The notes beneath the pieces are model-generated. The model searched no databases. It saw nothing but the letters and a program-made list of their open reading frames with translations, and had not been told where the DNA came from. Of a DNA stretch of 35,818 nt, positions 8,399 to 35,818 are shown one piece after another (within the stretch, counting starts at the first letter, position 1; the number at the start of each line of letters is the position of its first letter). Source of the DNA: a bacterium (GTDB lineage: Bacteria; Chloroflexota; Chloroflexia; Chloroflexales; Kallotenuaceae); the NCBI GenBank assembly GCA_016781505.1, contig JADDQF010000002.1:1-35818 (forward strand), given 5' to 3'. The position numbers were made by a program, and so were the translations under genes.

Positions 8399-9736
8399 GT
8401 GGAAAAGTCTTTACCGCATAATGATGCCGCCGAACGCGCAACGCTTGGAGCAATTTTTCTGGATCGTGAGGCCGTTGTTCCGATTGCTGCCTGGCTGCTT
8501 CCCGAACACTTTTACACCGAACGACACGCCTGGGTTTATGAAGCGCAGCTGGCCTGCTACAACCGCCGTACGCCGCCTGATCTTACCACGGTAGCCGACG
8601 AGCTACGGCGCAAAGAGCGTCTGGAGCAGCTGGGTGGTATCCCGTTCCTGATTGATCTGTCGAACTCGGTACCGACTGCCTACCACGTCGAGTATTACGC
8701 GAAAATTGTTGAGCGCACCGCAGTTCTTCGGCGCCTCATCCAGGCGGGCGGCAAAATCGCGGCCTTAGGCTTTGATGAAACCGACGATGTCGAGCAAACG
8801 CTGGACGCCGCCGAGCAGGAGCTCTTCAACGTTTCGCAGCGCCGCGGTATTCAAGGCTTTGTTCCGCTCTCACAAGTCGTCGATCAATACTACGAGTACC
8901 TGAGCGAGGTACAAGACCGCGGTCCGGAAATGGCCGGACTGCCGACCGGTTTCATCGACTTCGACCGCATGACCGGCGGCCTGCACAAGTCGGATCTGCT
9001 GATCTTGGCGGCGCGTCCCGGCGTTGGTAAAAGCAGCTTTGCGATGACGATGGCGTTTAACATGGCCATGCAACATCGCACGCCCGTCGGGGTCTTTGCC
9101 CTTGAGATGGGTCGCGATCAGCTGCTGCAGCGTTTGCTGGCCACGCACACCGGCATCGACTCACAGAAACTGCGCACCGGCCGCATTACCACCGGCGAGC
9201 TGACGACGCTGATGGATGCGATGGGCCAGCTTTCGGCGGCGCCAATCTATATTGACGATACGCCGGGCGTGACGGTTAATGAGCTGCGCTCCAAAAGTCG
9301 CCGGCTCCAGGCCGAGCATGGCCTCGAAGTCTTGATCATCGACTACCTGCAGCTGATGTCGGGCAGTGGCAAGCGCAACGACAATCGGGTACAGGAAGTT
9401 TCAGAAATCTCCCGATCACTCAAATCATTGGCACGCGAACTCAATATTCCGGTAATAGCATTATCTCAGCTTTCACGCGCTGTTGAAGGCCGCACAAGCC
9501 ACGTTCCGGTCCTTGCCGACCTAAGAGAAAGTGGATCGATCGAGCAGGACGCCGATCTTGTTATGTTTATTTATCGAGAAGAAATGTATGACAAGGATAC
9601 CGACAAAAAAGGTATTGCTGAGATTCATATTGCGAAACATAGAAATGGTCCGTTGGGAACGGTCAGCCTGTTTTTTGACCAGCGCACCACGCGTTTCCGT
9701 GATCTGGCGCCCTACCACTCACCGGCAGGATATTAA
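8399..9736 (+). CDS. dnaB: Replicative DNA helicase DnaB
   Basis: A 445-residue protein starting at GTG 8399 with GGAG eight bases ahead; MEKSLPHNDAAERATLGAIFLD is the normal DnaB N-terminus. The N-terminal helical collar runs to about residue 150 and the RecA-like motor follows. Walker A is ARPGVGKSS, Walker B is VLIIDYLQLM, and the C-terminal motifs LSQLSRAVE, LADLRESGSIEQDADLVMFIYR and IAKHRNGPLGT are intact. It unwinds DNA ahead of the replication fork as a hexamer. DnaD-domain and DnaC-type loader genes follow 96 and 867 bases downstream, consistent with a primosome operon. The stretch 9541-9660 is only 40% G+C by count, with AGA, ATA and TTA codons nearby, unlike the rest of the gene. 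No intein or frameshift was seen. Confidence 0.97.
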   Translation: MEKSLPHNDAAERATLGAIFLDREAVVPIAAWLLPEHFYTERHAWVYEAQLACYNRRTPPDLTTVADELRRKERLEQLGGIPFLIDLSNSVPTAYHVEYYAKIVERTAVLRRLIQAGGKIAALGFDETDDVEQTLDAAEQELFNVSQRRGIQGFVPLSQVVDQYYEYLSEVQDRGPEMAGLPTGFIDFDRMTGGLHKSDLLILAARPGVGKSSFAMTMAFNMAMQHRTPVGVFALEMGRDQLLQRLLATHTGIDSQKLRTGRITTGELTTLMDAMGQLSAAPIYIDDTPGVTVNELRSKSRRLQAEHGLEVLIIDYLQLMSGSGKRNDNRVQEVSEISRSLKSLARELNIPVIALSQLSRAVEGRTSHVPVLADLRESGSIEQDADLVMFIYREEMYDKDTDKKGIAEIHIAKHRNGPLGTVSLFFDQRTTRFRDLAPYHSPAGY

Positions 9737-10603: not shown

Positions 10604-11965
10604 ATGGACCCTATCTCTGACATTCTGGCGCGCATGCGCATCCCCGCGCCCGACGACAACATACAGGCAACGCCCGAGACATGTGCGCGCTGTAACGGCG
10701 CTGGGTTTTTGCGGTATGACGTTCCCTTTGGCCATCCGAACTTCGGTAAGCTCCACCCATGTGGCTGCAAAACACACGAGGTTTCGGCGAGTCGGGCCAA
10801 TAAATTTCGTCAGCTATCACACCTGGGACCGCTCGAGCACAAAAACTTTGCGAACTTTGATCTGCGCAAAGGCACAAGCGCTTTTAGCCGCGACGCGCTG
10901 CAGGTCGCGCAGCGGGTAGCCCAGGAATTCGCGGCGGCGCCCCATGGCTGGCTGGTGTTGACTGGGCCAAGCGGCACGGGAAAATCACATCTTGCAGCCG
11001 CCATTACCAATGCGATCCTGGATCGGCAGGAGGGCGCGCTGTGGGTTTTTGTGCCCGACTTCCTCGATCATCTACGGACGACCTTCAGTCCGCAAAGTGG
11101 TGTTTCCTATGACGAGCTTTTCACGACGGTGCGGGATGCGCCGGTGCTCGTGCTTGACGATCTCGGGGCGCAATCCACCAGTCCCTGGGCTGAAGAAAAG
11201 CTGTATCAGATTTTGTCGCACCGCTATGACGCGCGGAAGCCAACCGTGATCACCACCAGCAAGCTGATCGACACCTTTGACGGCCGCCTACGTTCACGCT
11301 TGCAGGATGCCGATTTGAGCCGCACCGTCAACGTCGTCGGCTACGCGTCCGAGGTGGTAAATCGGCTGATGGGCTTGAGCTACGATTTGATTCGGCGGAT
11401 GACCTTTGAAACGTTCGTGCCACAACCGTATAGCGCGGAAGAAGCACAGCGCAACCGCTACAATCTCGCCCAGGTGCATGGCATCGTGCAAAGCTTCGTG
11501 CGCGATCCACAGCAGCGGAAGTGGTTGGTGCTGATGGGCGTGCACGGTTGCGGCAAAACGCATCTAACGGCCGCCATGGCCAATGATCGCCTGTCTCGCG
11601 GCTTGCCCACATTGTTTATCAACACCCCTGATCTGCTGGACGCGCTGCGCGCATCGTTTGGCGGTGAAGGCTCCGGCGCGTACGATAAAGTATTTTTCGA
11701 GGTGCGGGCAACGCCGTTTTTGATCCTCGACGATTTCGGCGCGCAGTCGTCGACATCCTGGGCCAAAGAAAAGCTGTATCAGATCCTCAACTACCGCTAT
11801 AATGCGCAGCTGCCCACGGTGATTACCACCAACCAAACGCTGGAGGAGATCGACGCGCCCTTGCAGTCACGGATGAGCGACCAGGAATACTGTGGGGTGT
11901 TGGCGGTGCTGGCGCCCGATTTTCGCAAAACTCGCGGCGGTTTGTGGAAGCTCAAAGCGCGGTAG
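10604..11965 (+). CDS. Tandem DnaC/DnaI-type helicase loader with two AAA+ domains
   Basis: A 453-residue protein. A zinc-binding N-terminus (Cys27-x2-Cys30 ... Cys53-x-Cys55) resembles that of DnaI-type loaders. Two full IstB/DnaC-like AAA+ modules follow. Module 1 has Walker A TGPSGTGKSH (about 120-129), Walker B VLVLDDLGAQ, sensor 1 TVITTSK and the arginine-finger region GRLRSRLQD. Module 2 has Walker A MGVHGCGKTH, Walker B FLILDDFGAQ, sensor TVITTNQ and LQSRMSD. The motif W-A-x-E-K-L-Y-Q-I-L recurs after each Walker B, so the two halves look like an internal duplication. Known DnaC and DnaI have one AAA+ domain in about 245-310 residues. The dnaB-dnaD context supports helicase loading. 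Start ATG 10604 has GGA seven bases ahead. IS21-type IstB is unlikely since there is no transposase gene. Confidence 0.88.
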   Translation: MDPISDILARMRIPAPDDNIQATPETCARCNGAGFLRYDVPFGHPNFGKLHPCGCKTHEVSASRANKFRQLSHLGPLEHKNFANFDLRKGTSAFSRDALQVAQRVAQEFAAAPHGWLVLTGPSGTGKSHLAAAITNAILDRQEGALWVFVPDFLDHLRTTFSPQSGVSYDELFTTVRDAPVLVLDDLGAQSTSPWAEEKLYQILSHRYDARKPTVITTSKLIDTFDGRLRSRLQDADLSRTVNVVGYASEVVNRLMGLSYDLIRRMTFETFVPQPYSAEEAQRNRYNLAQVHGIVQSFVRDPQQRKWLVLMGVHGCGKTHLTAAMANDRLSRGLPTLFINTPDLLDALRASFGGEGSGAYDKVFFEVRATPFLILDDFGAQSSTSWAKEKLYQILNYRYNAQLPTVITTNQTLEEIDAPLQSRMSDQEYCGVLAVLAPDFRKTRGGLWKLKAR

Positions 11966-24113: not shown

Positions 24114-24917
24114 TTAAATGTCCGGCGGCGGCTCCGGCTCGCCCAGCATATCGCTGTGCCAGCGCTCCAACCAGTCAAGCGCTTCCCGCAAGCGCCCATA
24201 ATGCAGATTGCGGTAGGAGCTGATTCCAAACTGACGATACAACCCACTGTACACGCCACCATATTCATTGCGGCGCGAGCGGGCCGCCAGCGTGTGCGCG
24301 ACGCGCCGCACCAGCCGTGCCAGCTCAAAGGAGGGCGCCGGCCGCTCCTCTTGGAGGCGGCCCCCAATCCGATTGCCCTCCTCGCGGTTGGTTTGCAGCT
24401 GGCGCTCAACCAGCATCTGCTGACGCGCCAGCGCCGCCTGCGCCATCATGCCTTGATACGCCAGCTCGGCCGGCTCCATCTCCGCAGGCTCCGGCAGCAG
24501 CGTGTCTTCCGGCCCAAATCCTTGGGGCTTGAACGCCTGCCACAGCACCGACGCACACTCCTGCTGATACAAGCTGAGCTTGGACCGGACCGCGGAGTTA
24601 ACCGACGCGGTGTCGATCATGGCTAGCCAGAGCGGCACCAGATCGACACGCAGCACAACATCACCGGCGATCGAACGCAAGCCTGACGACAATGTGCTGT
24701 GTGCAATGGCGGCTTGAACTGCTCCCTCCTCATCTAGACCAAGTGTCGCGCACAACCGGCTCAGTGGAACGTAACGCTCGTTTGCATCCAACTCTTGCAA
24801 CGCAATGATGTCTTCCTCATAAAAGACAGTGGTCGGATCGTGCCCATCACGGTTGGCATCCTGCATCACCAGGGCGCTCCCTTCTGCTACGCGTTCAGCT
24901 ATGCTAGCAGTGTGCAT
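24114..24917 (-). CDS. P22 antirepressor N-terminal-domain protein, stand-alone
   Basis: A 267-residue protein. Residues about 25-130 match the P22_AR_N fold of phage antirepressors: IIALQELDANERYVPLSRLCATLGLD, then the HSTLSSGLRSI turn, VDLVPLWLAMID and KLSLYQQECASVLWQAF. The C-terminal half is a charged helical region with a Gly/Tyr-rich block (YGGVYSGLYRQFGISSYRNL) that I do not recognise. In phages such domains bind repressor proteins. No phage gene is near, so this looks domesticated. ATG 24917 is used, but GTG 24869 has AAGGGAG seven bases ahead and may be the true start. A regulatory role is inferred only from the domain. Confidence 0.7.
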   Translation of the reverse strand: MHTASIAERVAEGSALVMQDANRDGHDPTTVFYEEDIIALQELDANERYVPLSRLCATLGLDEEGAVQAAIAHSTLSSGLRSIAGDVVLRVDLVPLWLAMIDTASVNSAVRSKLSLYQQECASVLWQAFKPQGFGPEDTLLPEPAEMEPAELAYQGMMAQAALARQQMLVERQLQTNREEGNRIGGRLQEERPAPSFELARLVRRVAHTLAARSRRNEYGGVYSGLYRQFGISSYRNLHYGRLREALDWLERWHSDMLGEPEPPPDI

Positions 24918-24983
24918 CAAGATTCGCAAACCAACTTAAGTAGCACAAAAGCGGTCAGTTTTGCTGGCGCTTACCCGATCAGA

Positions 24984-25048: not shown

Positions 25049-26860
25049 CTACTGGTACCAGAGCGGCCACCGATCATCGACGTTGTTGTTGGTCAGCTGG
25101 ATCGCCCGGGGCAGCCCACCGTTCAGATCCATCCGGTAAATTTCGTAGTCGCCATCGGAGTTCGAGTCAAAGACCAGCTGTGAGCTGTCGCGGCTCCACG
25201 AGGCCGCGCCATCGTCGGCGGGATCATTCGTTAACCGCTGCTCGCCAGTTCCGTCGATGTTGATCAGGTACAGATCGCCCTGGCCGTTGCGGTTGGACGA
25301 GAAGACGATCCGGGCGCCATCGGGCGAAACGCGTGGAAAGTAGTTGTCGGCGGTTGGCGTGTTGGTCAGCGCCCGCGGATTGACGAGCGACACACTGATG
25401 TCCATGTCGGACATGAAGTTGTACTGCAGATCGGCCCGATAGACGGCGAACTTACCACCTTCGCAGCTCATAGCATAGACCAGTCCCGAGCCATCCGGCA
25501 GCCACGTGGGCGACTGGTAGACGCACTTCTTGTCGTTGAAGGCCAGGTACATGGGATACGCGTTGTCACGCGCGAACGGCTGCATTGCGAGTGTGGAAAA
25601 GTCGCCGTCTTGCACCACCAGCGCGATCTGCGTCCCATCGGGCGACACCGCCGGGTTGAAGAGCTGCGGAGTGGCCTGGCTGATGCTGTGTTGGCGGACA
25701 TCGCTCGCGTTGCCCAGCGAAATGCTGAACAGCTTGCGAATACCGCTATCACGCTTCGAGTCGGTCATCAGGCGGGGATAGTCCGTTTGGCCATAGGCCC
25801 GCCGCCAAGAGTAGGGCACCGTTTCCTGCTGGCCCGAGGTTATCTGAGTTACCGCCACGCCATTCTCGTCAGTGTAAAACGTTTCCCAATGATCGGCGGT
25901 TGCGCGCTTGGAGGCAAAGGCGACCGGTAAGTTGAAGTTGCCGTACTCGCCCGGCTGCCAGGGCTGGCCAAGGTGCGGGTAGCGCCATTGGAAGTAGTGC
26001 TGACCGACATTGCCCATCTCAACCCGGAACGCCGCCGCGTTTGATGGCGTGTACGTGACTACCCGTCGTTCATACAGCTGGACCAGCACATCTTTGTCGA
26101 CGCCTGCCACTTTAGCACGCACCCAGTACGCATCGGTGATCGGATAGCCGAAGGCAAACGTTCCATCAACCGGACCATTTTGGATAAAATCGCGGAAAAC
26201 GCGCGGCACATTATGGCCAGTGATCGTGTTATAGGTTACGATCTCGGTCGCCGGATCGCGGGCGAGATCGGCGTTATTCGTGCGATTACCGCTCTTGTCC
26301 AGCACGCTGCCAACACGCTGGCCGATCCGATCCGGATCGCGATAGCCGTTGTCGATGGTTGCCACGCCCTGGAACGACGCGTAGGTCGGCGCGCTGGGGT
26401 TTTCGTTGGCAGGATCGCCGGCTACGGGCACGTTGGCTGGCTGGCGCTGCACGTTATCCTCGAAGCCGATCGTGTCGCCGGTCTTGAGCCGCCCGGAGAC
26501 CATCTCAACTGTCAGCAGCCCGTTGGTCACGCCTCGTGCGCCGACAACCGACGGATTGTTGATCTCCATGCGCGCTTTGTCGAAGTACTGCACCTGGCGC
26601 AGGCCGTTCGGCGATTGCCGGTAAAACTCCTTGTAGTCGAACCAGGGGCTTGGTCCCCAGGTGTATGAGCGAGCCGCTCGTCCGTTGGCAACCGCCTCAT
26701 CACTGGCCCGCCAAACCTCGCCAAACACCGGCCGCGCATAGGCGAAGCGCCCCGTCCATGGCTCTGCTTCGGCCGGCACAACACCCGTCAGCGCCGTCAG
26801 TCCCAGCAAGGCAGCGGTTGTCCAGCGTCGCCAATTCCGTAGCTCAATGTTGATGCCCAT
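25049..26860 (-). CDS. Secreted TolB-like beta-propeller (PD40) protein
   Basis: A 603-residue protein from ATG 26860, with GAGGAGG eight bases ahead. A signal peptide ends near PAEAE (about residue 33). Residues about 35-350 form a region rich in Trp, Tyr and Asn (SPNGLRQVQYFDKARMEI, GVTNGLLTVEMVSGRLKTGD, GTFAFGYPITDAYW) that recurs in exported Chloroflexota proteins, as I remember it, and has no function I know. The C-terminal part has TolB/PD40 blades: FNPAVSPDGTQIALVV, SPTWLPDGSGLVYAM, YFPRVSPDGARIVFSSNR and the ASWSRDSSQLVFDSNSDGD blade. By blade count it may be a partial or open propeller. It is likely exported to the cell surface; binding partners are unknown. Confidence 0.8.
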   Translation of the reverse strand: MGINIELRNWRRWTTAALLGLTALTGVVPAEAEPWTGRFAYARPVFGEVWRASDEAVANGRAARSYTWGPSPWFDYKEFYRQSPNGLRQVQYFDKARMEINNPSVVGARGVTNGLLTVEMVSGRLKTGDTIGFEDNVQRQPANVPVAGDPANENPSAPTYASFQGVATIDNGYRDPDRIGQRVGSVLDKSGNRTNNADLARDPATEIVTYNTITGHNVPRVFRDFIQNGPVDGTFAFGYPITDAYWVRAKVAGVDKDVLVQLYERRVVTYTPSNAAAFRVEMGNVGQHYFQWRYPHLGQPWQPGEYGNFNLPVAFASKRATADHWETFYTDENGVAVTQITSGQQETVPYSWRRAYGQTDYPRLMTDSKRDSGIRKLFSISLGNASDVRQHSISQATPQLFNPAVSPDGTQIALVVQDGDFSTLAMQPFARDNAYPMYLAFNDKKCVYQSPTWLPDGSGLVYAMSCEGGKFAVYRADLQYNFMSDMDISVSLVNPRALTNTPTADNYFPRVSPDGARIVFSSNRNGQGDLYLINIDGTGEQRLTNDPADDGAASWSRDSSQLVFDSNSDGDYEIYRMDLNGGLPRAIQLTNNNVDDRWPLWYQ

Positions 26861-27029
26861 CGTAGGTGCCTCCTCAATCAAGAACCTGTGATGCATCAAC
26901 TATACGGACCAGCTCGTCTCGCCACGACGATAAAACGCTGATACGACCCCACAGTCCAGGTGAGACGGCTATCAGGTTGGAACGCGACTGAACGCAAAGT
27001 TGGGCTGCCCGGCTGGCCTAATGACTGCA

Positions 27030-27075
27030 AAAACACAGCTCCCACACGCCGGATGCCATGTGGGAGCTGTGTTTT
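27030..27075 (-). terminator. Strong terminator of the six-gene operon
   Basis: Arms 27030-27046 and 27059-27075 (AAAACACAGCTCCCACA and TGTGGGAGCTGTGTTTT) pair perfectly over 17 bp with a 12-nt loop. On the minus strand the stem ends in a run of five T (27029-27033), fitting an intrinsic terminator about 20 bases past the last gene. The plus-strand copy also ends in TTTT, so it may act both ways. Confidence 0.8.
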
Positions 27076-27095
27076 GTTGTTATCGTGAAGCTAGT

Positions 27096-27500
27096 TCAGC
27101 GCCACGGGTCGTCCGGCGCGAACCACATTACCTGCTCCTCGGTGCGCTGGTGCAGCTGGCCATCAACCCAGGTCTCGCTAACGCGGTGGCCCATAGCGAC
27201 CACACGTGCACTCCGCCGCTGGGGCAGGGCCGGCGGCCGCTGGGGAACAGTGGACTTAGCGACGGGCTGCTGCCGACGCTGCAGCCAGGCTAGCCCGGCT
27301 TCGGCTGCCAGTGTCGCGACGCCCAGGGCAACCACTTTGCCGGTTTCTTTCCACTGCGCCGGCAATCTGATTGGGCGTCGGGCCAGTGCACCGTTTGGGC
27401 GCCGAGCCAGTGGCAAGGCCAGGCGCGTGCCACACTGCCCGCAATACATTTGCTCAGCGGGATTGCCGGTAGCGCAGTGAGGACAAATCCGCTCCACCAT
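27096..27500 (-). CDS. Small zinc-ribbon membrane protein, last gene of the operon
   Basis: A 134-residue protein, with AAAGGAGGAG just ahead of the ATG. It opens with a zinc ribbon (Cys-Pro-His-Cys ... Cys-Gly-Gln-Cys, residues 6-24), followed by an Arg/Pro linker and a weak hydrophobic segment (VVALGVATLAAEAGLAWL, about 55-72). The C-terminal tail (VSETWVDGQLHQRTEEQVMWFAPDDPWR) is unassigned. The ribbon resembles that of the LPxWL-repeat protein three genes upstream. It starts 11 bp after the MutL-like gene. Function unknown. Confidence 0.75.
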   Translation of the reverse strand: MVERICPHCATGNPAEQMYCGQCGTRLALPLARRPNGALARRPIRLPAQWKETGKVVALGVATLAAEAGLAWLQRRQQPVAKSTVPQRPPALPQRRSARVVAMGHRVSETWVDGQLHQRTEEQVMWFAPDDPWR

Positions 27501-27511
27501 CGGCTCCTCCT

Positions 27512-29470
27512 TTACTTCCGCCGAAAAAATCCTCGCTTGGGCTGCGGCTGCAGCACCAAACCCTCGCGCAACGCCGCAACGTCATCACTTGATGATACCA
27601 CACCGACCGGATCGGCGCCCGCTCCATTCTTCGGCTCGGATTGGGCTTCAGTGGCAGCGGCTCCATTGGTTGCGCTCGCCGCAGCATTTGTGGTTTGGGT
27701 GGGCGCATAGGCCGTTTCGGGCGGCAGAGCGTCCAGAGCATCCATCCAACGCAGCAGCAGCTGCCGTCGTTGCTGCAGGTCGTCGGGCAACGCCAGGGGT
27801 CGCGGCCGCGCGTCGATGATCACGCCAAGCGCGCTGCCCACAATCGCCGCCTCGTCCGACAGCACTTCCGTACCCGCCTGATTCTGGCCGATCGCAATGC
27901 CGCCTACCGGCCGAATTCGGAGCGTGGCACGCTTACCCCGTGCCAGCGGCAGCCGCACAATCTCGCCGGCATGAACCGTGCGCGTGATCGGCGTGCCTTG
28001 GAGCGGCGTCAGCTCAACCTCCGCCATTTTCTTGCCCGCCGCCAGCTCACCCCGCGGCACGATCACGGTCGCGAGCGGCATATTGTTGAGCATGTCCATT
28101 TCCAACAAACACACGGCGGCGTCGGTGTTGATATGGGCCAGCGCGCCGCTGGCCGCGAGCAAGCTCCACTGATCGAGATACAGGTTGATCGCCAGCTCGC
28201 TGTCACGATAGGTTGGCTGGAGCCCATCCAGCAGCGCCAGAGCAGCTAAGCCTGGCCGGGGCGCGTCCACCATCGACCCGCCGGCAATAACCAGATCGAA
28301 CTGCGCGTCTTTACGCTCGTCGCGCAGGGCCTGATACGCAATCCCAATTGCCTCCCGCATCAGCGCATAGTCCAGCAGCAGATCGTCAAGGTCGGTAGCG
28401 ACCTGATGAGGCCGGATGGCCCGGTTCAGCAGCCGATGCGCCAGATCCTCGGCTTCAAGCTCAAAGGGCAGCCAGCGTTGGATTCCCTGTGACCCGCGCT
28501 GCTCCAGCACGGCCAGCGCCCCGAAACGCGTACCTAGCCGCCCAAAGATCGCCTCCGAGTAGTGATTATTGCTGGCCAGCAGACACGCAGTCGTGGCCGA
28601 GTCTGTGTTGACGGCCAGCACGTTGCGGTTAAAGCGCTGCGCCAAAAAGCGCACCATCAACCCCTGGTCTTCCGCCACGCTGCCCAGCCGCTCGTTGCGC
28701 AGCATGCGGAGCCGTTCCGCGCCCGGCAAAGCCGATACAATTTGTTCGGCATAGCGGCGACGCAGCAGTGCCCGCGTCGGCTCCAGCTGCGGTTGTCCAG
28801 GCAGGGGCAACACATTCGGCATAACTTCAATGGAAACGCCGTCGCCGATGTGCTGACGCACCTGATCCGCTGCAGCGCTGTTGCCGGCAAACACGACCAG
28901 TGGCGGTTGGGTGCTGTGTTGAGCCAGCAAGCCTACAATATGGGCCAGGCGCTGGTTTACCGAAACGTTGCCACCTTCCTGGCCGCCGGCAAAAACGATC
29001 ACATCGGGATTGAGGTAGGCCAACGCCGCGATATGGCGTCCGAGCTGCGTTCCGCCCTCATCCAAAGCGATGGTTTCCAGCAGCGTCGTGTAGGTGCTAC
29101 GGGCGGCATGCGTGGCGCTGCGGACCGACGCGTGACGCGACAGGCCGGCGACAGCGACCGAAAGCGTTCCCGCCGCGCTTGTTGTAGCTACCAGCCCATC
29201 AACGCCGTTGCCTGCGTCGTCTTGAGGATAGGCCAAATCTTCGCCGCGCAGCAGCTCGCGCGCGGTGATCTGCTCAATTTTTTGGACTGCTGCGATGATC
29301 GCCTTGGTGGGGTCATTGTCGGGCGGACCAAAGGTGCTGGGACTGGTGGCACGTGCGATCAGCCGATAGCTCTCATCCACCAGGTCGATCAACGCCACGT
29401 TGGTGGTATCCGGGCCGATCTCGGCGACAAGGAGCGCACCGTGCTCGGGTATCGAAGCAGTTTCTTCCAC
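27512..29470 (-). CDS. GlmL/MutL-like ASKHA-fold protein
   Basis: A 652-residue protein related to GlmL/MutL, the actin/Hsp70-fold partners of B12-dependent glutamate mutase. Matching blocks are LLVAEIGPDTTNVALIDL (phosphate-1 loop), SYRLIARATSPST, the LNPDVIVFAGGQEGG segment, VNTDSATTACLLA (second phosphate loop) and FDLVIAGGSMVDAPRPGLAALALLDGLQP near residue 420. In the first loop the usual Asp (DIG) is Glu (EIG). No mutase subunit or B12 gene is in the window. A C-terminal extension of about 70 residues is Ala/Thr-rich and ends KRGFFRRK. GTG 29470 is chosen as start because GAGGGAG lies six bases ahead; a TTG at 29485 would overlap the previous gene by four bases. Its role in this operon is unknown. 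Confidence 0.8.
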   Translation of the reverse strand: MEETASIPEHGALLVAEIGPDTTNVALIDLVDESYRLIARATSPSTFGPPDNDPTKAIIAAVQKIEQITARELLRGEDLAYPQDDAGNGVDGLVATTSAAGTLSVAVAGLSRHASVRSATHAARSTYTTLLETIALDEGGTQLGRHIAALAYLNPDVIVFAGGQEGGNVSVNQRLAHIVGLLAQHSTQPPLVVFAGNSAAADQVRQHIGDGVSIEVMPNVLPLPGQPQLEPTRALLRRRYAEQIVSALPGAERLRMLRNERLGSVAEDQGLMVRFLAQRFNRNVLAVNTDSATTACLLASNNHYSEAIFGRLGTRFGALAVLEQRGSQGIQRWLPFELEAEDLAHRLLNRAIRPHQVATDLDDLLLDYALMREAIGIAYQALRDERKDAQFDLVIAGGSMVDAPRPGLAALALLDGLQPTYRDSELAINLYLDQWSLLAASGALAHINTDAAVCLLEMDMLNNMPLATVIVPRGELAAGKKMAEVELTPLQGTPITRTVHAGEIVRLPLARGKRATLRIRPVGGIAIGQNQAGTEVLSDEAAIVGSALGVIIDARPRPLALPDDLQQRRQLLLRWMDALDALPPETAYAPTQTTNAAASATNGAAATEAQSEPKNGAGADPVGVVSSSDDVAALREGLVLQPQPKRGFFRRK

Positions 29471-29481
29471 TGTAAGCTCCC

Positions 29482-30135
29482 TCAAAACAACGTGCCTACT
29501 TGGGTAAACCAGTCGGCGATGATTTGGATCTGGTTTACGAGCGCCGTGAGGTAGGTGGTAACCGCCGACGCGAGAAACACCCCAAATGTTGCTAACACCA
29601 GACCACGACCAAGCCGGCGCACAAAAAAGCCGATCCCCGATGGCTTCTCGCCGCGCTGGCGATAGGTGAACGACACCAGGGTAACCACAACGGCCACAAC
29701 CAAAACAATCGTGCCCGCAATTGCGCTCACGTCCGTCGCTTGCAAACGGCGCAGCGCGACGGTATCCAGCAGTTGGGGCAGAATCGTCCCGCGTGCTGCT
29801 CCAACCAGTGCCACCGCGGCGCCCACTCCAAAAAGAACAGCCAGAGGGATGTTGGCCAGCGCTGATGCGCGCTGCCGCCCAAACCGCGTTGCGAGCAGTA
29901 GCAGCAGCAGGGCACTAACGCCCAGCACAATCAACGTTGGCAGCGACGTGGTGCTTGCGGCTTGCACAATCGACGGCACAAGGGTCTGACCAACCAGCAC
30001 GGCCGCGGCATATCCCAGGGCGACGCCGATCAGCAGATATTGGGCGAAGCGGTAAAAGGGATTATCGCCGACGACCCGGCTCAGCACCATCAGGCTCAGC
30101 AGCGTGGCAATGCCGCCGCCGACTAGCGGTCCCAT
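29482..30135 (-). CDS. Multi-span membrane protein of the operon
   Basis: A 217-residue, strongly hydrophobic protein with about six spans, such as YLLIGVALGYAAAVLVGQTL, TLIVLGVSALLLLLLATRF, IPLAVLFGVGAAVALVGAA, AGTIVLVVAVVVTLVSFTY and LVLATFGVFLASAVTTYL. ATG 30135 is preceded by GAGGAG and overlaps the end of the LPxWL-repeat gene by 13 bp, so translation is coupled. No transporter motif was recognised. The protein two genes upstream is of similar size and span density, so both may be membrane subunits of the same complex. Confidence 0.75.
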   Translation of the reverse strand: MGPLVGGGIATLLSLMVLSRVVGDNPFYRFAQYLLIGVALGYAAAVLVGQTLVPSIVQAASTTSLPTLIVLGVSALLLLLLATRFGRQRASALANIPLAVLFGVGAAVALVGAARGTILPQLLDTVALRRLQATDVSAIAGTIVLVVAVVVTLVSFTYRQRGEKPSGIGFFVRRLGRGLVLATFGVFLASAVTTYLTALVNQIQIIADWFTQVGTLF

Positions 30136-33100
30136 ACCTGCTCCTCAACCCCGCCCTCGTCGGCGCGCCGGGCGCGCCGGCCCAAAATCAGCGCCGGAAT
30201 CCCGCCCACAACAACTGCCGCGGCAAAGATCACATTGCCAATCGCCACCGCATCAACTTGCCGACCCAGCCGCTCACCGGAAACACCTTGGACGCGCGCA
30301 TAGGCTTCTGCATCACGCAGACCGGCCAGCAGGCTAACATTGGGAGCGGCTGCATATGGCTGCACTTGCGGCGCGATCTCGGCAGGCGTTAGCACCATGG
30401 TTTGCAAATCGGGATGCTCGCTGCGCACCTGCTCAAACCAGCCGCGCACATCGTCAACGTCGTCGGCCATGACCACCAGCAACGCCACATTATCCCAGCT
30501 ACATGCATCCGCCGTTCGCGCGCCACACATGCTTTCCATGGTTACGTCGTTGGTCCGCAGGTCGACCCCGTTGGCGTCCTGGGCAAAGAGCGCACCGAAT
30601 GCGGCATTACTCGCAAACCGGCGTAGCGCGAGCGAGCCGCCCGCCTTGAAGCCTAGGTTCACGTAGCCCAGGCCGTTAAGATGGTACAGATCGTTGAGGG
30701 CTTCGAGCTGCGCAACCCGTTCATTTGCCAATAACGCGCCTTGAGGATCGGTGCTGACAAACATCAGGGGCACGTCCCGGCGCCCCGCCAGCTGGCCAAC
30801 AAGCAGCTCCTCCAATGGCCGCAGCTCGGCCAGGCGCTGCGCGTCCCATTCATAGGCGAGCATCACGGGTCGGTTGGCCGGCAAGGCCGTTACCAGCTGC
30901 ACCGCGCCGGCAACTGTCGGTGCGGCTGCCGGTACCGCGCCAAAATTCAGTCCGAGCCGATCGCTCAACAGAATTGCGAGCACCGCCCCAATGATCAGCA
31001 GTGCAACCAATGCCAACACAATGGTCAGCACCCGCGAGCGACGGCGCTCTGGTACCTGCGGGGCTGGCTCCGCGGCCGGCTGCGTTTTGAGTTGGTCGAG
31101 CAGCTGCATGGACGCCACACGCTCCGGTGTGCGCACGACCTGCCGAGGCGCAGGGGCTACCACGACCGCTGGAGGAGCAGCCGGCTCTTCGGGTTCCTGG
31201 TCTACCCGCTGCAACCAGTTGGGCGCAGGCTCGGCAGCAGGTGCGGCTGGGGTGAGTGCGCTCTCATCCCTCAGCCAGGCTGGCAGATCGAGACCTCCTA
31301 TAAGGGCAGACTGTTCTGCGTTGGGTTGGTCCGCCGCCGCCGGTTGATCCGGCTCTTCCATCCAGGCAGGCAGCCCTCGCGACGGCTCCGTCGTTTTGAC
31401 TGGTTGATCGGGCAGATCACTCAGCCAGGAGGGCAGATCGGTGGTTGTGTCAGCCGCCGTGGGTGTGTTAGGCGAAGAGTTCTCCGCTTCGGCCAGCCAA
31501 CTCGGCAGCTCGGTAGTCGCTCCGGCGCTGGTGGGCGAGCTAGACGGCGCAGCATCGGCATCGGCCAGCCAGGCGGGTAGTTCAACTGTATCGGCTTTTG
31601 ATGCTGCGGCCGCGGGCGCCGTGGTCTCGGCTGGAGCCTCATAAACTTGGGCGGCACCGGCGTCAGGCGTGGTGTCACTCGTCCGCAGCCACTCCGGTAG
31701 TGCATCGGTTTCCGGGACAGAGTAAATTTCCGCGGTATGCGCTTCAACAGGACGCGCTTCGTCGGCTGGGGCATCCGGTAGCCCAAGCCAGGCCGGCCCA
31801 GCACCGGCCGACGCTGAGGGCAGCGGCTCGTCGGTCGCTTGTAACCAGGCCGGAAGCTCGTCGCTTGTAGCAGCCGTAGCGGTTGTCGGCGGTGTAGTTT
31901 CAGCTGCCGGCAGCGGCTCGTCAAGCAACCAGGCGGGCAGTGAATGTGTTGCGCTCGGATCGCTGCTTGCTGCTGGCGACGTCTGCTCCGCCACCACGTC
32001 GTTGCGTAGCCATGGCGGCAGCTCGTCCGTCGCTTGTGCCGGCGGCTGCGGGTCTGCGGCCGTGCTCGACGCTGCAAGATCACCGGTAAGCCAGGCGGGC
32101 AGCTCATCCGAGCTACCAGTTTCAGGCGCTGCAGCAGGCGCGGTCGCAGACTCGTCCATCAGCCAGGACGGCAATGCGGGTGCGTTACGGGCTGGAGCCT
32201 GAGATGCTGCAGGAGGCGCAGTCGGCGATTCTTCGATCAGCCAGGATGGCAGTGCCGATCCGCCATCAGCCTGAGCCTTTGCAGGAGAATTGCCGGCTGG
32301 ACTGGATGCGTCGCTGAGCCAGGCTGGCAGCGCATCACCCCCGGTTACAGTTGGAGCGTGCGGAGCAGGAGCCTCGCCAAGCTCACTGCCCCAGTCCGGT
32401 AGCGGAACATCCACGTCACCGGTCGGTGCTGCCGCGGCGGGCTCATCCTCCAGCCAGCTGGGAGGGCCGGACCTGCTCGCTTCAGGACTGGCGGTCGGCT
32501 GTTCGTCAATCAGCCAGCTGGGCAGCGTTGCCCCCGTGGTCGCGCTGGCCGTAGATTCTGCCGCTTCGGTCTGGCTCAACCAGTGCGGCAATTCAGTCGG
32601 AGTTTCAGCTGCCGCTGGCGACGCAGCCTGGTCAGCGCTTGGGGTTGGTGCCAAGTCATCGTTCCCGCCGAGCCAGGCCGGCAGCTCATCCTTGCCGGCC
32701 ACAGGAGCGCTTGGCTGGCCGCTGGATGTCCCGTAATCGCTGAGCCAGTCGGGCAGCTCGTTACCCGAGCTGGCCTGCGTTCCGGTTGCCGACACGGGCG
32801 TTGAACCGGCGTCGTCACGAAGCCACGCCGGCAGATCGTCCGCTGCCGGTGCAGGCTGTTCCTCCTTGGCGGCAACGTTCGCTGCAGCCGCTCCTTCGTC
32901 ATCCTGCCAGCTGGGCGTAGCCGATGGAGTAGCTGCAGCAGTGGAGGATGGCGCACCATCAATTTGCCGTAACCAGGCCGGCAAATCCTCATTGCTGGCC
33001 GTGGGTTGCAGTGGCGACCGCGACGCGCTGTCGTCACGCAGCCAGGCCGGCAGCTCGTCGGCCGTTGGCACCGGTGCAGATTCCGACGACGTAGCGGAAG

Positions 33101-33596
33101 GCAGCCAGGCAGGCGCCTGCTCAGTGGCAGGGCCTTGCAGCAGCTCAGGAGCCAGGTCGGGGTCGTCACGCAGCCACGCCGGCAGATCGTCGTTGCCGGT
33201 TCGAGCGGCGGGAGCCGCAGACGCCGGCGGCGTGGCTGAGCGCAACCACTCAGGCAGATCATTAGCTGGAGCTTCAGGTTCCGGTGCGGGAGTTGATTGT
33301 TGGAGCTGGGCTAGCCAATCCGGTGTTTGAGCTGCATTCGCCGCCGTTGGCTGCTCATCTTCCACGCCCATATCGGTTAACCAGGGTGGCAGATCAGCCG
33401 GCGGTGAGCTTGCTTGGCCCTGGACAGCGGCAGGCTGTGCGCCGGTTGGCTCGGCAGGCGCTTGTAGCCAGGCCGGCAGATCGGCAGGCGCCGAATTTCT
33501 GGGAGGACTGGCCACTGCGCCCAGCAACTGGCCACACTCTCCACAAAATTTATTTGTTTCAGGGTTGGACGCGCCGCAGCGCGGACATTTGGACAC
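30123..33596 (-). CDS. Zinc-ribbon protein with about 31 LPxWL-type motifs and a membrane-anchored C-terminal domain
   Basis: A 1157-residue protein from GTG 33596, with AGGAG six bases ahead. A zinc ribbon (Cys4-x2-Cys7 ... Cys18-x2-Cys21) is followed by residues 39-800, built of the motif [DE]-L-P-x-W-L plus acidic or polar residues, separated by Ala/Pro/Ser/Thr-rich linkers. I count 24 copies of LPxWL or LPxWM and about seven degenerate ones (TPDWL, PPSWL, APNWL), with the conserved Trp every 25 residues on average. Residues 856-877 and about 1116-1138 are membrane spans. Between them lies a roughly 240-residue alpha/beta domain (MLAYEWDAQRLAEL ... VPLMFVSTDPQG) with two cysteines. The ribbon and motifs should be cytosolic, suited to recruiting many partner copies. 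No function is known to me. Confidence 0.85.
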   Translation of the reverse strand: MSKCPRCGASNPETNKFCGECGQLLGAVASPPRNSAPADLPAWLQAPAEPTGAQPAAVQGQASSPPADLPPWLTDMGVEDEQPTAANAAQTPDWLAQLQQSTPAPEPEAPANDLPEWLRSATPPASAAPAARTGNDDLPAWLRDDPDLAPELLQGPATEQAPAWLPSATSSESAPVPTADELPAWLRDDSASRSPLQPTASNEDLPAWLRQIDGAPSSTAAATPSATPSWQDDEGAAAANVAAKEEQPAPAADDLPAWLRDDAGSTPVSATGTQASSGNELPDWLSDYGTSSGQPSAPVAGKDELPAWLGGNDDLAPTPSADQAASPAAAETPTELPHWLSQTEAAESTASATTGATLPSWLIDEQPTASPEASRSGPPSWLEDEPAAAAPTGDVDVPLPDWGSELGEAPAPHAPTVTGGDALPAWLSDASSPAGNSPAKAQADGGSALPSWLIEESPTAPPAASQAPARNAPALPSWLMDESATAPAAAPETGSSDELPAWLTGDLAASSTAADPQPPAQATDELPPWLRNDVVAEQTSPAASSDPSATHSLPAWLLDEPLPAAETTPPTTATAATSDELPAWLQATDEPLPSASAGAGPAWLGLPDAPADEARPVEAHTAEIYSVPETDALPEWLRTSDTTPDAGAAQVYEAPAETTAPAAAASKADTVELPAWLADADAAPSSSPTSAGATTELPSWLAEAENSSPNTPTAADTTTDLPSWLSDLPDQPVKTTEPSRGLPAWMEEPDQPAAADQPNAEQSALIGGLDLPAWLRDESALTPAAPAAEPAPNWLQRVDQEPEEPAAPPAVVVAPAPRQVVRTPERVASMQLLDQLKTQPAAEPAPQVPERRRSRVLTIVLALVALLIIGAVLAILLSDRLGLNFGAVPAAAPTVAGAVQLVTALPANRPVMLAYEWDAQRLAELRPLEELLVGQLAGRRDVPLMFVSTDPQGALLANERVAQLEALNDLYHLNGLGYVNLGFKAGGSLALRRFASNAAFGALFAQDANGVDLRTNDVTMESMCGARTADACSWDNVALLVVMADDVDDVRGWFEQVRSEHPDLQTMVLTPAEIAPQVQPYAAAPNVSLLAGLRDAEAYARVQGVSGERLGRQVDAVAIGNVIFAAAVVVGGIPALILGRRARRADEGGVEEQVWDR
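31208..33484 (-). repeat. Degenerate protein repeat: about 31 LPxWL-type motifs
   Basis: The motifs run from Trp43 to Trp794 of the encoded protein. The core LP-[ASPDEH]-WL is kept while linkers differ in length and sequence, so the repetition is selected at protein level rather than being a recent tandem DNA duplication. Variants after the core are RDD, RDE, IDE, MDE, SDx, AEA and QAT. Confidence 0.85.
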
Positions 33597-33605
33597 AACG
33601 CTCTC

Positions 33606-34232
33606 CTAGCGATCAAGGTAGGGCTGGTCGAGGCCAAGCAACACACGGGTGCTCGCAACAAGCGCGCCAATCCCGACGCCCAACAACAGGCCACGGGCAA
33701 CGCCCAGCACCGGGTAGGCTTCGATCCAATCCAGGGTAGCGCGCAGCCCAGGCATTAATGCTGCCCACGGCCCACTGGCTAACAAAAAGATGACGGCAAC
33801 GCCCAGAATGAGCGATGCTTCGCGCGGACGGACCTGCAACGCCCGCCACGCAGCGCGCAGCGCAAAAAACGTTAGCAGCGCCAGGAGCGAGCCGGCGAGT
33901 GGCTGATACACATAGCGCAACACTTCGCCCGTTACGGCCGCCATCACCGGCAGGCCGAGGCTGGGCAACAGACCAAGGGTAAACGTCGCGAGCAGGGCAA
34001 CCATCAGCACCAGACTGTATGGCCAATCGGCAGCACGATCAGCAATTCTCCGTCGATGGGTATTCAGGACGTTCAGGACGCCGAGCAGCAGCCCGCCCGT
34101 GACCACTAATGCGGCGATCTGGAGCAAACCATCGCTCAGCGCATTCGGCTGCACATACGCCGCCAGCACAATCACGCCTGCTGCCAAGGCAATCAGCAAA
34201 GGAAACCAGCGTCTCGCGTCACTTACCGGCAC
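33606..34232 (-). CDS. Multi-span membrane protein of the operon
   Basis: A 208-residue protein with about six hydrophobic segments (WFPLLIALAAGVIVLAAYV, LLQIAALVVTGGLLLGVLNVL, SLVLMVALLATFTLGLL, LLALLTFFALRAAW, SLILGVAVIFLLASGPW and VLGVARGLLLGVGIGALVA). Start GTG 34232 has AAAGGAG ahead. It sits 13 bp after the DUF6754-like gene and 9 bp before the LPxWL-repeat gene. No family is recognised. Size and topology are similar to the other membrane protein of the operon. Confidence 0.75.
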   Translation of the reverse strand: MPVSDARRWFPLLIALAAGVIVLAAYVQPNALSDGLLQIAALVVTGGLLLGVLNVLNTHRRRIADRAADWPYSLVLMVALLATFTLGLLPSLGLPVMAAVTGEVLRYVYQPLAGSLLALLTFFALRAAWRALQVRPREASLILGVAVIFLLASGPWAALMPGLRATLDWIEAYPVLGVARGLLLGVGIGALVASTRVLLGLDQPYLDR

Positions 34233-34245
34233 CCGTGGTCTCCTT

Positions 34246-35040
34246 TCAGCTCAGTTCGGGCAAGTTAAGCACCGGGGCAAGCACTTGCCACAGCAGCCCA
34301 CCAAGCAGCAGCGCAATCACCAGCCAGCGCAGCACGTCCTGGGTCAACAGCCGCGCTTTTGGCGCTGCGCTGTCGCTGAGATACGCCTCGGCTGCAAACA
34401 GCTCTTCGCCGATCAAGGTTGCTTCGGCGCTCAAGGCTAGCACCGGCAGGGCCGCCAGCGAGGTAGCAGCGGCAACCTGCGGAATACCATGCGCCGCGCC
34501 TTCCTCGGTAATCAAGAGCGCTTCCGTGCCGTAACTGCCTGCCGCAACACTCGCCGCCGGCGGTGCTACCCGATACCGGGCAGCAACACCGGCAGCATAG
34601 GCTGCTGGGGTGTTTTGGGCGACGAGCTGCACATTCTCAGGCCGGAAATCACTGGCGAAACCCGCCTGCCGATAGGCTTGATGGAATGTGCCGCGCAGGG
34701 CTGCATGGGCCACAATATCGCCGCTGGTGGCCATGACGGTACCGCCACGCTTGGTGGTTTCTTGCGCGATCCGTTGGGCGATCAACAGGCTGCCAAGCGT
34801 TTCCGCGGTGGGTGTGACTTGGGCAATGCTGCCCTGGTTGGGGCCGGTTGCAACATGGAGCGGCTGGCCCGACTCGGCAACCTCGCCGAAGAGCGTTCGC
34901 AGCCGGGTAATGCCTGGCAGGGGGCGAAACACAGGCAGGCGACCAGAACGCACGCGGAGGGCAAAGACCAGAACGAGGAGCGCCGTGCTAACAAGCAGCA
35001 AAAGCAGCAGAACGGCTGCAGGAGTCGAAGGAAATACCAT
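34246..35040 (-). CDS. DUF6754-like membrane protein, first gene of the operon
   Basis: A 264-residue protein from ATG 35040, with AAGGAA six bases ahead. An N-terminal span (residues 7-29, PAAVLLLLLLVSTALLVLVFALR) and a C-terminal span (about 239-257, WLVIALLLGGLLWQVLAPVL) flank an alpha/beta domain: FRPLPGITRLRTLFGEVAESGQPLHVATG, SLLIAQRIAQETTKRGGTVMATSGD, LRGTFHQAYRQAG and GTEALLITEEGAAHGIPQVAAATSL. This resembles the family I remember as DUF6754; the name is from memory. Function is unknown. As the first gene after a strong promoter it probably sets the level of the whole operon. Confidence 0.75.
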   Translation of the reverse strand: MVFPSTPAAVLLLLLLVSTALLVLVFALRVRSGRLPVFRPLPGITRLRTLFGEVAESGQPLHVATGPNQGSIAQVTPTAETLGSLLIAQRIAQETTKRGGTVMATSGDIVAHAALRGTFHQAYRQAGFASDFRPENVQLVAQNTPAAYAAGVAARYRVAPPAASVAAGSYGTEALLITEEGAAHGIPQVAAATSLAALPVLALSAEATLIGEELFAAEAYLSDSAAPKARLLTQDVLRWLVIALLLGGLLWQVLAPVLNLPELS

Positions 35041-35077
35041 ACACTTTCCTTACGCGTCGCCGCTTTTCTTCGCACCG

Positions 35078-35106
35078 AGTGTACAAGAAGTGAAAAAAAC
35101 TGTCAA
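35078..35106 (-). promoter_or_regulatory. Sigma-70-type promoter of the six-gene operon
   Basis: On the minus strand TTGACA (35106-35101) and TACACT (35083-35078) are separated by exactly 17 bp. Transcription would begin near 35071 and give a leader of about 30 nt before the ATG at 35040. The -35 box is perfect. Confidence 0.7.
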
Positions 35107-35114
35107 CACTCGTA

Positions 35115-35375
35115 CTATCGTAGCAAATTTTCTAGACGCGTCCATGCTGCCTCGTCCCCTAGCGCCGCAGCCATTCGGCCTATCTCAGCTTGCCACCCCT
35201 GGTGGGGCAGCAGCGGCTGCAGCAGCACCAGGCTCTGGCCGGCAACCAAGCCCAGCGGTCGGCCGATCCCAAGCAGGATCAGCGCGGGCGTGGCCAAACC
35301 CTTGTCACGCAGATAGTGGGCAACCTGCTCAAGCGATACGGTGGGCTCACGCTGGGGTGGTGGAGCCTGGTTCAT
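35115..35375 (-). CDS. Small hypothetical protein coupled to dtd
   Basis: An 86-residue protein. Its ATG (35373-35375) overlaps the dtd stop codon as ATGA, so translation is coupled. [45 protein letters not shown] looks like a helix followed by a single hydrophobic hairpin or membrane-associated helix. I do not know a family name. It ends just upstream of the operon promoter. Confidence 0.65.
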
Positions 35376-35818
35376 GGCTTCAGATCGTCGGTGTCGAGCC
35401 AAATCGTTACCGGGCCATGATTGACCAGCTGCACGTCCATCATGGCGCCGAAGCGGCCCGTCGCGACCACAAGGCCAAGCTCGCGCAGCACGACGCAGAA
35501 GTGATCTACCAGCGGCGCGGCGTGCTCCGGTCGAGCCGCATGCACAAACGATGGTCGCCGCCCTTTGCGTGTATCCGCCAGCAGCGTAAACTGCGACACC
35601 ACCAGCGCGGCCCCGCCCACCTCCAACAACGAGTGGTTGAACTTGCCCGCGGCGTCGGCAAAGATGCGCAGGTTGGCGATTTTGTCGGCTAAGCTGTTCG
35701 CTTCAGCCACGCTATCGTCTTGGCTAACGCCCAGCAGGATCAGCAGGCCGGCGTCGATCGCGCCGACCGTCTCACCTTCGACGACCACACGTGCTTCGGA
35801 CACTCGTTGAATCAGTGC
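35372..35818 (-). CDS. dtd: D-aminoacyl-tRNA deacylase (5' end cut by window)
   Basis: Reading past the first internal GTG to the window edge gives [20 protein letters not shown]; the family begins MRALIQRV or MRAVVQRV, so only about two codons are missing. 148 residues are visible. DTD hydrolyses D-amino acids from mischarged tRNA. The two active-site motifs are present: [17 protein letters not shown] (SQxT) and the Gly-cisPro motif in NHGPVTIW, where the family usually has NxGPx[13 protein letters not shown] and [12 protein letters not shown] are other conserved blocks. Length is normal. Confidence 0.95.

Follow-up and report, generated by a model that had tools for sequence, protein, structure and literature searches.

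A conserved Chloroflexota operon encoding a putatively membrane-tethered array of LPxWL motifs beside a MutL-type ASKHA protein

Overview of the operon

The window analysed here is a stretch of 35,818 bp from a Chloroflexota bacterium of the family Kallotenuaceae (assembly GCA_016781505.1, contig JADDQF010000002.1, positions 1 to 35,818 of the forward strand). It carries a conserved, largely membrane-associated operon of no known role, and an earlier note made from the sequence alone had likewise assigned it none. That note had placed six minus-strand genes at 27030-35106, here called g1 to g6, and had read them as one membrane complex with a multivalent scaffold. All six open reading frames are present where they had been placed, and both the single conserved operon and the multivalent scaffold stand. 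The reading of the six genes as one unit does not. Several lineages, and one genome of the window's own family, have a locus without g1, g2, g4 and the g3 ectodomain, which makes these parts a separable module; g6 is limited to the window's family, and two further genes, g0 and g7, have to be added. The stable core is the zinc-ribbon/LPxWL protein (g3), the MutL-like protein (g5) and g7, which is encoded outside the window. We propose, with a probability of roughly 0.4, that this is a Chloroflexota system in which a membrane-tethered multivalent motif array works with the MutL-type ASKHA protein and g7, and to which a separable membrane module is added. The genes of the operon and the parts of g3 are located as follows.

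35115 to 35375, minus strand: g0, conserved protein of 86 amino acids and of no known family, upstream neighbour of g1
34246 to 35040, minus strand: g1, DUF6754 protein (PF20539, 3.5e-31) with a transmembrane helix, a Rossmann-like alpha/beta domain and a transmembrane helix
33606 to 34232, minus strand: g2, six-span membrane protein with the conserved C-terminal motif GARGxLIGxALGxLxxGxRVLxGxDxPY
30123 to 33596, minus strand: g3, scaffold of 1157 amino acids with an N-terminal zinc ribbon, the LPxWL array, a transmembrane helix, a predicted extracytoplasmic alpha/beta domain and a transmembrane helix
33519 to 33596, minus strand: zinc ribbon of g3 (CPRC...CGEC; PF13240, 27.1 bits against a cut-off of 25)
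31208 to 33476, minus strand: array of 29 PxW[LM] motifs in g3 (residues 41 to 792, mean spacing 26.8 amino acids)
30129 to 31034, minus strand: C-terminal transmembrane helix, alpha/beta ectodomain and transmembrane helix of g3
29482 to 30135, minus strand: g4, six-span membrane protein with conserved GDNPxFR and GxxxGTLxPQ
27512 to 29470, minus strand: g5, MutL/GlmL-family ASKHA protein (PF13941, 2.4e-53) with a C-terminal domain and a basic tail ending ...KRGFFRRK; the GTG start is likely, and the longest reading frame begins at TTG 29485
27096 to 27500, minus strand: g6, zinc-ribbon protein of 134 amino acids found in the window's family only (PF13240, 26.1 bits)

Conserved core and separable membrane module

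Distribution was compared among Chloroflexota genomes, and plasmids were also searched for relatives of g5 and g7. The order and strand of g1-g2-g3-g4-g5 are kept in nearly all of 40 wide loci. A profile search for DUF6754 matched 516 stretches, and the 80 best named contigs were examined, nearly all of which are labelled Anaerolineales/Anaerolineae or unplaced Chloroflexi; the g1-g5 order is intact in 67 of these 80, and the remaining 13 stop at contig ends. Gene-order conservation, which the earlier note had suggested as a check, was thus found for g1-g5. Genomes carrying the block include two that were taken as Chloroflexus aurantiacus (G026, with MutL at 320,690-322,696 of contig C1) and Herpetosiphon aurantiacus (G021). 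A block of five to seven genes, mostly without named protein families, is kept in order through several Chloroflexota families and classes. Matches to g6 after MutL were obtained by tblastn in L061, L063 and L064, all of the window's family, and in none of the other loci tested.

A comparison with a same-genus genome (L061) gave ratios of nonsynonymous to synonymous substitution rates (dN/dS) of 0.08-0.14 for g1-g5 and 0.25 for g0, which is 62% identical to its counterpart. Synonymous sites are saturated for g6, for which the corresponding ratio of proportions of differing sites (pN/pS) is 0.25. Because these ratios are low throughout, the operon genes are real and under purifying selection.

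Loci outside this arrangement indicate which parts belong together. At L190-L195 and L198, which come from other families, DUF6754 and the six-span proteins were not found, and a zinc-ribbon protein with LPxWL motifs lies immediately before MutL, followed in most cases by g7. The scaffolds of L190 and L192 have no transmembrane helix and end in an amphipathic C-terminus (RGIFEAIRDWLSR, moment 0.70). Within the window's own family, the array of one genome (G004, L064) ends in a single transmembrane helix; MutL and g6 come immediately after it, and the locus has neither an ectodomain nor g1, g2 or g4. Since loci without g1, g2 and g4 keep a tethered LPxWL protein beside MutL, what is conserved as a unit is the array with its membrane tether and MutL; the remainder can be separated from it at the locus. 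A second reduced locus belongs to the window's genus (G003, L062): g1 is broken and g2 missing, and after its first transmembrane helix the scaffold continues into an apparent g4 end. This is a natural minimal variant or possibly an assembly error.

In six genomes (G008, G011, G014, G034, G036 and G049) MutL is found near the end of one contig and DUF6754 near the end of another. Short-read assemblies thus seem to break at the g3 repeats, which would leave the operon under-reported in draft genomes.

The g3 scaffold and its LPxWL array

Between residues 27 and 820, g3 is Ala/Pro-rich and disordered-looking, with a net charge of -98. The array consensus is an acidic residue, an aliphatic residue, Pro, any residue, Trp and Leu, often followed by Arg. 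The stricter form [LVIM]PxW[LM] occurs 24 times, while composition-preserving shuffles give a mean of 0.05 and a maximum of 2, and 29 of the 31 Trp residues in the array stretch fall inside motifs. In a comparison with the same-genus relative, identity is 75% over motif residues and 36% over linkers, 83 of the 87 P/W/L positions are kept, and the zinc ribbon is 73% identical. Sites coding for [DE]LPxWL number 25 in the whole window genome, 17 of them within g3, and a whole-genome site scan revealed no comparable cluster elsewhere. In that same relative (G002, L061 5125-8900), g3 is split into two overlapping open reading frames, by a frameshift or a sequencing error in the repeats.

An RRRSR segment precedes the first transmembrane helix of g3, which suggests that the zinc ribbon and the array are cytoplasmic and that the C-terminal domain is extracytoplasmic. 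The C-terminal part was modelled with AlphaFold2 at a predicted local distance difference test score (pLDDT) of 81.0 and a predicted template modelling score (pTM) of 0.75; a fold search of it against the PDB returned generic Rossmann/RCK-like matches, none with E<0.001.

The array motif resembles the C-terminal tail of FtsZ. The FtsZ of the window genome ends in DDLDIPPFLRNRRR, and those of its relatives in DDLDIPPFLRN or DDLDIPAFLRR; with these the array (for example TDELPPWLRND) shares an acidic residue at -4, an aliphatic residue at -3, Pro at -2, an aromatic residue at 0, Leu at +1 and often Arg at +2. FtsA, likewise of the ASKHA fold, is present in the window's relatives, and FtsA has a binding site for the FtsZ C-terminal peptide (PMC5508204). 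The LPxWLR array could accordingly be a multivalent mimic of this peptide on a membrane-tethered scaffold, which would titrate or organise proteins that bind it (FtsA, SepF, another divisome protein, or the MutL-type ASKHA protein itself) and position or limit the Z-ring or septum in bacteria that are often filamentous. If true, the divisome or septum would be controlled in a way for which no other example is known. We consider it quite improbable: resemblance between short motifs is weak evidence, the aromatic residue of the array is always W where the FtsZ tail has F, the flanks of the array are acidic rather than basic, and position -4 is mostly A/S in loci without the membrane genes. Furthermore, FtsZ was found in 120 of 121 genomes, as against 173 of 301 for g5. 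Many Chloroflexota genomes have two FtsZ_C matches.

The MutL-like protein g5

The GlmL/MutL-like protein of the earlier note is indeed a member of the MutL family, matching PF13941 at 182 bits against a cut-off of 27 and aligning to a canonical GlmL-type protein by hhalign at 99.6%. Such kinship leaves room for g5 to keep the presumed canonical role of GlmL, as an accessory to a coenzyme-B12 mutase served by the operon. This is highly improbable, as g5 falls far below the GlmL equivalog cut-offs (73.0 against 475 for NF040745 and 73.4 against 600 for NF040744), no glutamate or ornithine mutase subunit was found among the window open reading frames scanned with Pfam, and in two genomes (G218 and G321) a canonical GlmL exists alongside an operon-type MutL encoded at a different place. 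To our knowledge there is no settled account of the role of the MutL-type ASKHA family, even in glutamate mutase operons.

Across the g5 family the ASKHA motifs are largely retained, with the phosphate-1 Gly in 38 of 39 sequences, the phosphate-2 Asp in 30 of 39 and the phosphate-2 Gly in 33 of 39. At the motif positions the window protein has E22, N293 and D295. In the window's taxonomic order MutL also gains a linker and a basic tail (KRGxFxRK). A tail of the type LRxxVEEPKKRGxFxRK is conserved in L065-L080, where g7 is unlinked, and is absent in most loci with an adjacent g7.

The g7 protein and its co-inheritance with g5

In Anaerolineae and most other families g7 follows MutL. Its N-terminus is barrel-sandwich-like (RnfC_N 1.8e-4 and NqrA_N 0.14, both below the curated cut-offs) and its C-terminus is KOW-like. 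The g7 profile was built from a set cleared of DUF11 proteins (L065, L079). No g7 relatives were found on plasmids, and MutL gave weak partial matches there.

In the window's order g7 is unlinked to MutL. The copy of the window genome (G000:C16:12523-13611, L267) lies upstream of genes for a receiver-GAF-HisKA-HATPase hybrid kinase, a protein with a weak receiver-like domain and ATP synthase, with an MreB-like gene beyond. The presence of g5 and that of g7 agree in 275 of 301 genomes, with 159 having both, 116 neither and 26 being discordant (159:14:12:116; Fisher p=3e-52, kinship ignored). Ten genomes of one genus (family f3) are without MutL, g7 and DUF6754, all three of which are present in other genera of that family. 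This loss of unlinked genes together in one genus is the best evidence that g5 and g7 share a function.

Zinc ribbons and KOW-like C-termini are common in nucleic-acid- and ribosome-associated proteins, and in the window's order g7 adjoins histidine kinase and ATP synthase genes, not MutL. Hence the array, the zinc ribbon and g7 might serve some other client in the cytosol, such as a nucleic-acid or translation complex, with MutL functionally linked to them without binding the array. This is unlikely, since the array protein stays right beside MutL in distant lineages, even at loci that lack the membrane genes.

Proposed mechanism

Under the reading that we prefer, of a tethered array working with g5 and g7, the g3 array would be an acidic, disordered-looking cytoplasmic segment presenting tens of near-identical [DE]LPxWL motifs, with the C-terminal end of g3 holding it to the membrane. 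It would recruit many copies of a cytosolic partner, most likely g5. ASKHA adaptors such as FtsA and PilM bind short peptides, and since g5 is in addition the constant neighbour of the array, it is the first candidate for this partner. Acting together with g7, the barrel-sandwich and KOW-like protein, g5 may switch its grip or conformation with nucleotide, as actin-fold adaptors of the FtsA and PilM type do. The assembly would then be a regulated clustering platform on the membrane surface, and the accessory module (g2, g4, g1 and the ectodomain of g3) could form a membrane core that couples this platform to the outer side of the membrane. The sequence comparisons themselves establish the gene order, the co-inheritance, the motif array with its conservation, the ASKHA family of g5 and the separability of the modules, and they predict the membrane topology; that the products associate physically, what the motif binds, whether nucleotide acts as a switch and which role the system has in the cell are what we infer.

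Several observations weigh against this proposal. The phosphate-2 motif of the window g5 lacks both Asp and Gly (VNTDSATT in place of DxG), and two same-genus sequences are also altered there; because the motif is degenerate, g5 of the window's genus may no longer have a nucleotide switch. With a moment of 0.25, the basic MutL tail is not strongly amphipathic. Three loci (L197, L204 and L206) have a MutL-like protein with no LPxWL protein seen beside it, and g5 is proposed as the array partner from gene neighbourhood only.

Membrane proteins and small proteins

The earlier note had counted four or five products with membrane segments and two with N-terminal zinc ribbons. Membrane segments are clear in g1, g2, g3 and g4 and borderline in g6, and the zinc ribbons are those of g3 and g6, both above the PF13240 cut-off. 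The likeness of g1 to DUF6754 proved to be membership (108.7 bits, curated cut-off 27). This protein, with a conserved motif GEE..A..AYL, was modelled with AlphaFold2 at pLDDT 89.8 and pTM 0.81, and an Arg-rich segment follows its first helix, which by the positive-inside rule suggests that the Rossmann-like domain is cytoplasmic. A fold search of g1 against the PDB gave generic Rossmann/RCK-like matches, none with E<0.001. No Pfam family was found for g2. Duplication was considered for the pair g2 and g4, and also for the alpha/beta domains of g1 and g3, and was rejected in both cases as no profile similarity was detected.

The two six-span proteins, the ectodomain protein and the barrel-sandwich g7 recall a redox or ion pump of the Rnf/Nqr type. 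The resemblance of g7 to RnfC_N/NqrA_N is weak; g2 and g4 match RnfA/RnfE in size and number of spans. Such a pump is hardly credible here, as neither g2 nor g4 has a conserved Cys, profile comparison with RsxA/RsxE gave a probability of 0.1-0.2%, and no ferredoxin or FMN-binding subunit is among the operon products. A role in anti-phage defence was likewise rejected, with no PADLOC match for g0-g6 or g7 at E 0.01. In a Pfam scan no product matched the PilM, PilN or PilO families; no dedicated profile comparison was made.

Operon boundaries and neighbouring genes

The close packing reported earlier is borne out, with gaps of 13 bp between g1 and g2 and 9 bp between g2 and g3, a 13-bp overlap of g3 and g4, and gaps of 11 bp both between g4 and g5 and between g5 and g6. 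The g4-g5 gap assumes that g5 starts at GTG 29470, after GAGGGAG; a start at TTG 29485 would give a 4-bp overlap. Two signals had been proposed as the limits of the operon.

35078 to 35106, minus strand: promoter-like TTGACA-17-TACACT between g0 and g1 (10 of 12 matches), possibly internal
27030 to 27075, minus strand: intrinsic terminator 3' of g6, with a perfect 17-bp stem, a 12-nt loop and a T tail

The terminator stem is exact at 27075-27030; the automatic terminator scan accepts loops of up to 8 nt, and the 12-nt loop thus escaped it. The promoter sequence is present, but matches of its type are near chance frequency in the stretch (2 observed against 1.3 expected). A gene list starting at g1 turned out to be incomplete, for the conserved seventh gene g0 lies directly upstream. 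In 17 loci it directly precedes g1, some Anaerolineae loci have the two genes overlapping, and the window copy matches the g0 hidden Markov model at 91 bits. The dtd gene (D-aminoacyl-tRNA deacylase, 35372-35803) overlaps g0 by 4 bp at the dtd stop, and the operon may therefore be co-transcribed with dtd. Because g0 is conserved directly upstream of g1 and overlaps dtd, the promoter before g1 may be internal, and the transcription unit probably starts further upstream.

The terminator is immediately followed, on the same strand, by a gene for a TolB-like PD40 beta-propeller protein (25049-26899). A protein with a P22_AR_N antirepressor-type domain (24117-24929), possibly a phage-like remnant, is encoded next to a nicotinate phosphoribosyltransferase gene. 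Elsewhere in the window, at 10604-11962, a protein of 453 amino acids with two tandem AAA-type modules (IstB/DnaC-like and DnaA-like) comes after DnaB (8399-9733) and a DnaD/DnaB_2-like gene, and is a possible double helicase loader.

Comparison with known systems

An open-access literature search found no description of the cluster, and no system that was tested here or is otherwise known to us combines such parts. Judged from these absent matches, the combination appears to be new as a system, while g1 and g5 alone belong to known families. The joining of a MutL-type ASKHA protein with a dense array of one short motif poses a testable question, namely what LPxWL binds, and the naturally occurring loci that have or lack the membrane module already hint at the make-up of the core.

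No paper on DUF6754 was found in the open-access search; g1 is a member of that family (PF20539), whose operon context is described here. The likeness to Rnf/Nqr systems is superficial, consisting of a six-span pair, an ectodomain protein and a barrel-sandwich protein, whereas the membrane subunits show no homology and have no conserved cysteines. By sequence g5 is a member of the MutL/GlmL family (PF13941; NF040745, NF040744, TIGR01319), in which the ASKHA phosphate and adenosine motifs are mostly kept. It differs from canonical GlmL in having an extra C-terminal domain, no neighbouring B12 mutase and scores below the equivalog level, and in coexisting with canonical GlmL in some genomes. The idea that g5 replaces FtsA was rejected, since FtsA is present in all 21 genomes searched and g5 is unrelated to it by profile (hhalign 0.4%). 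What g5 may have in common with the FtsA and PilM adaptors is by analogy only, in that an ASKHA protein would work at the membrane with a short linear peptide of its partner; it differs from FtsA in having no detectable sequence relation to it, in occurring in a genome that has its own FtsA, and in being encoded beside a scaffold on which the peptide is repeated 29 times.

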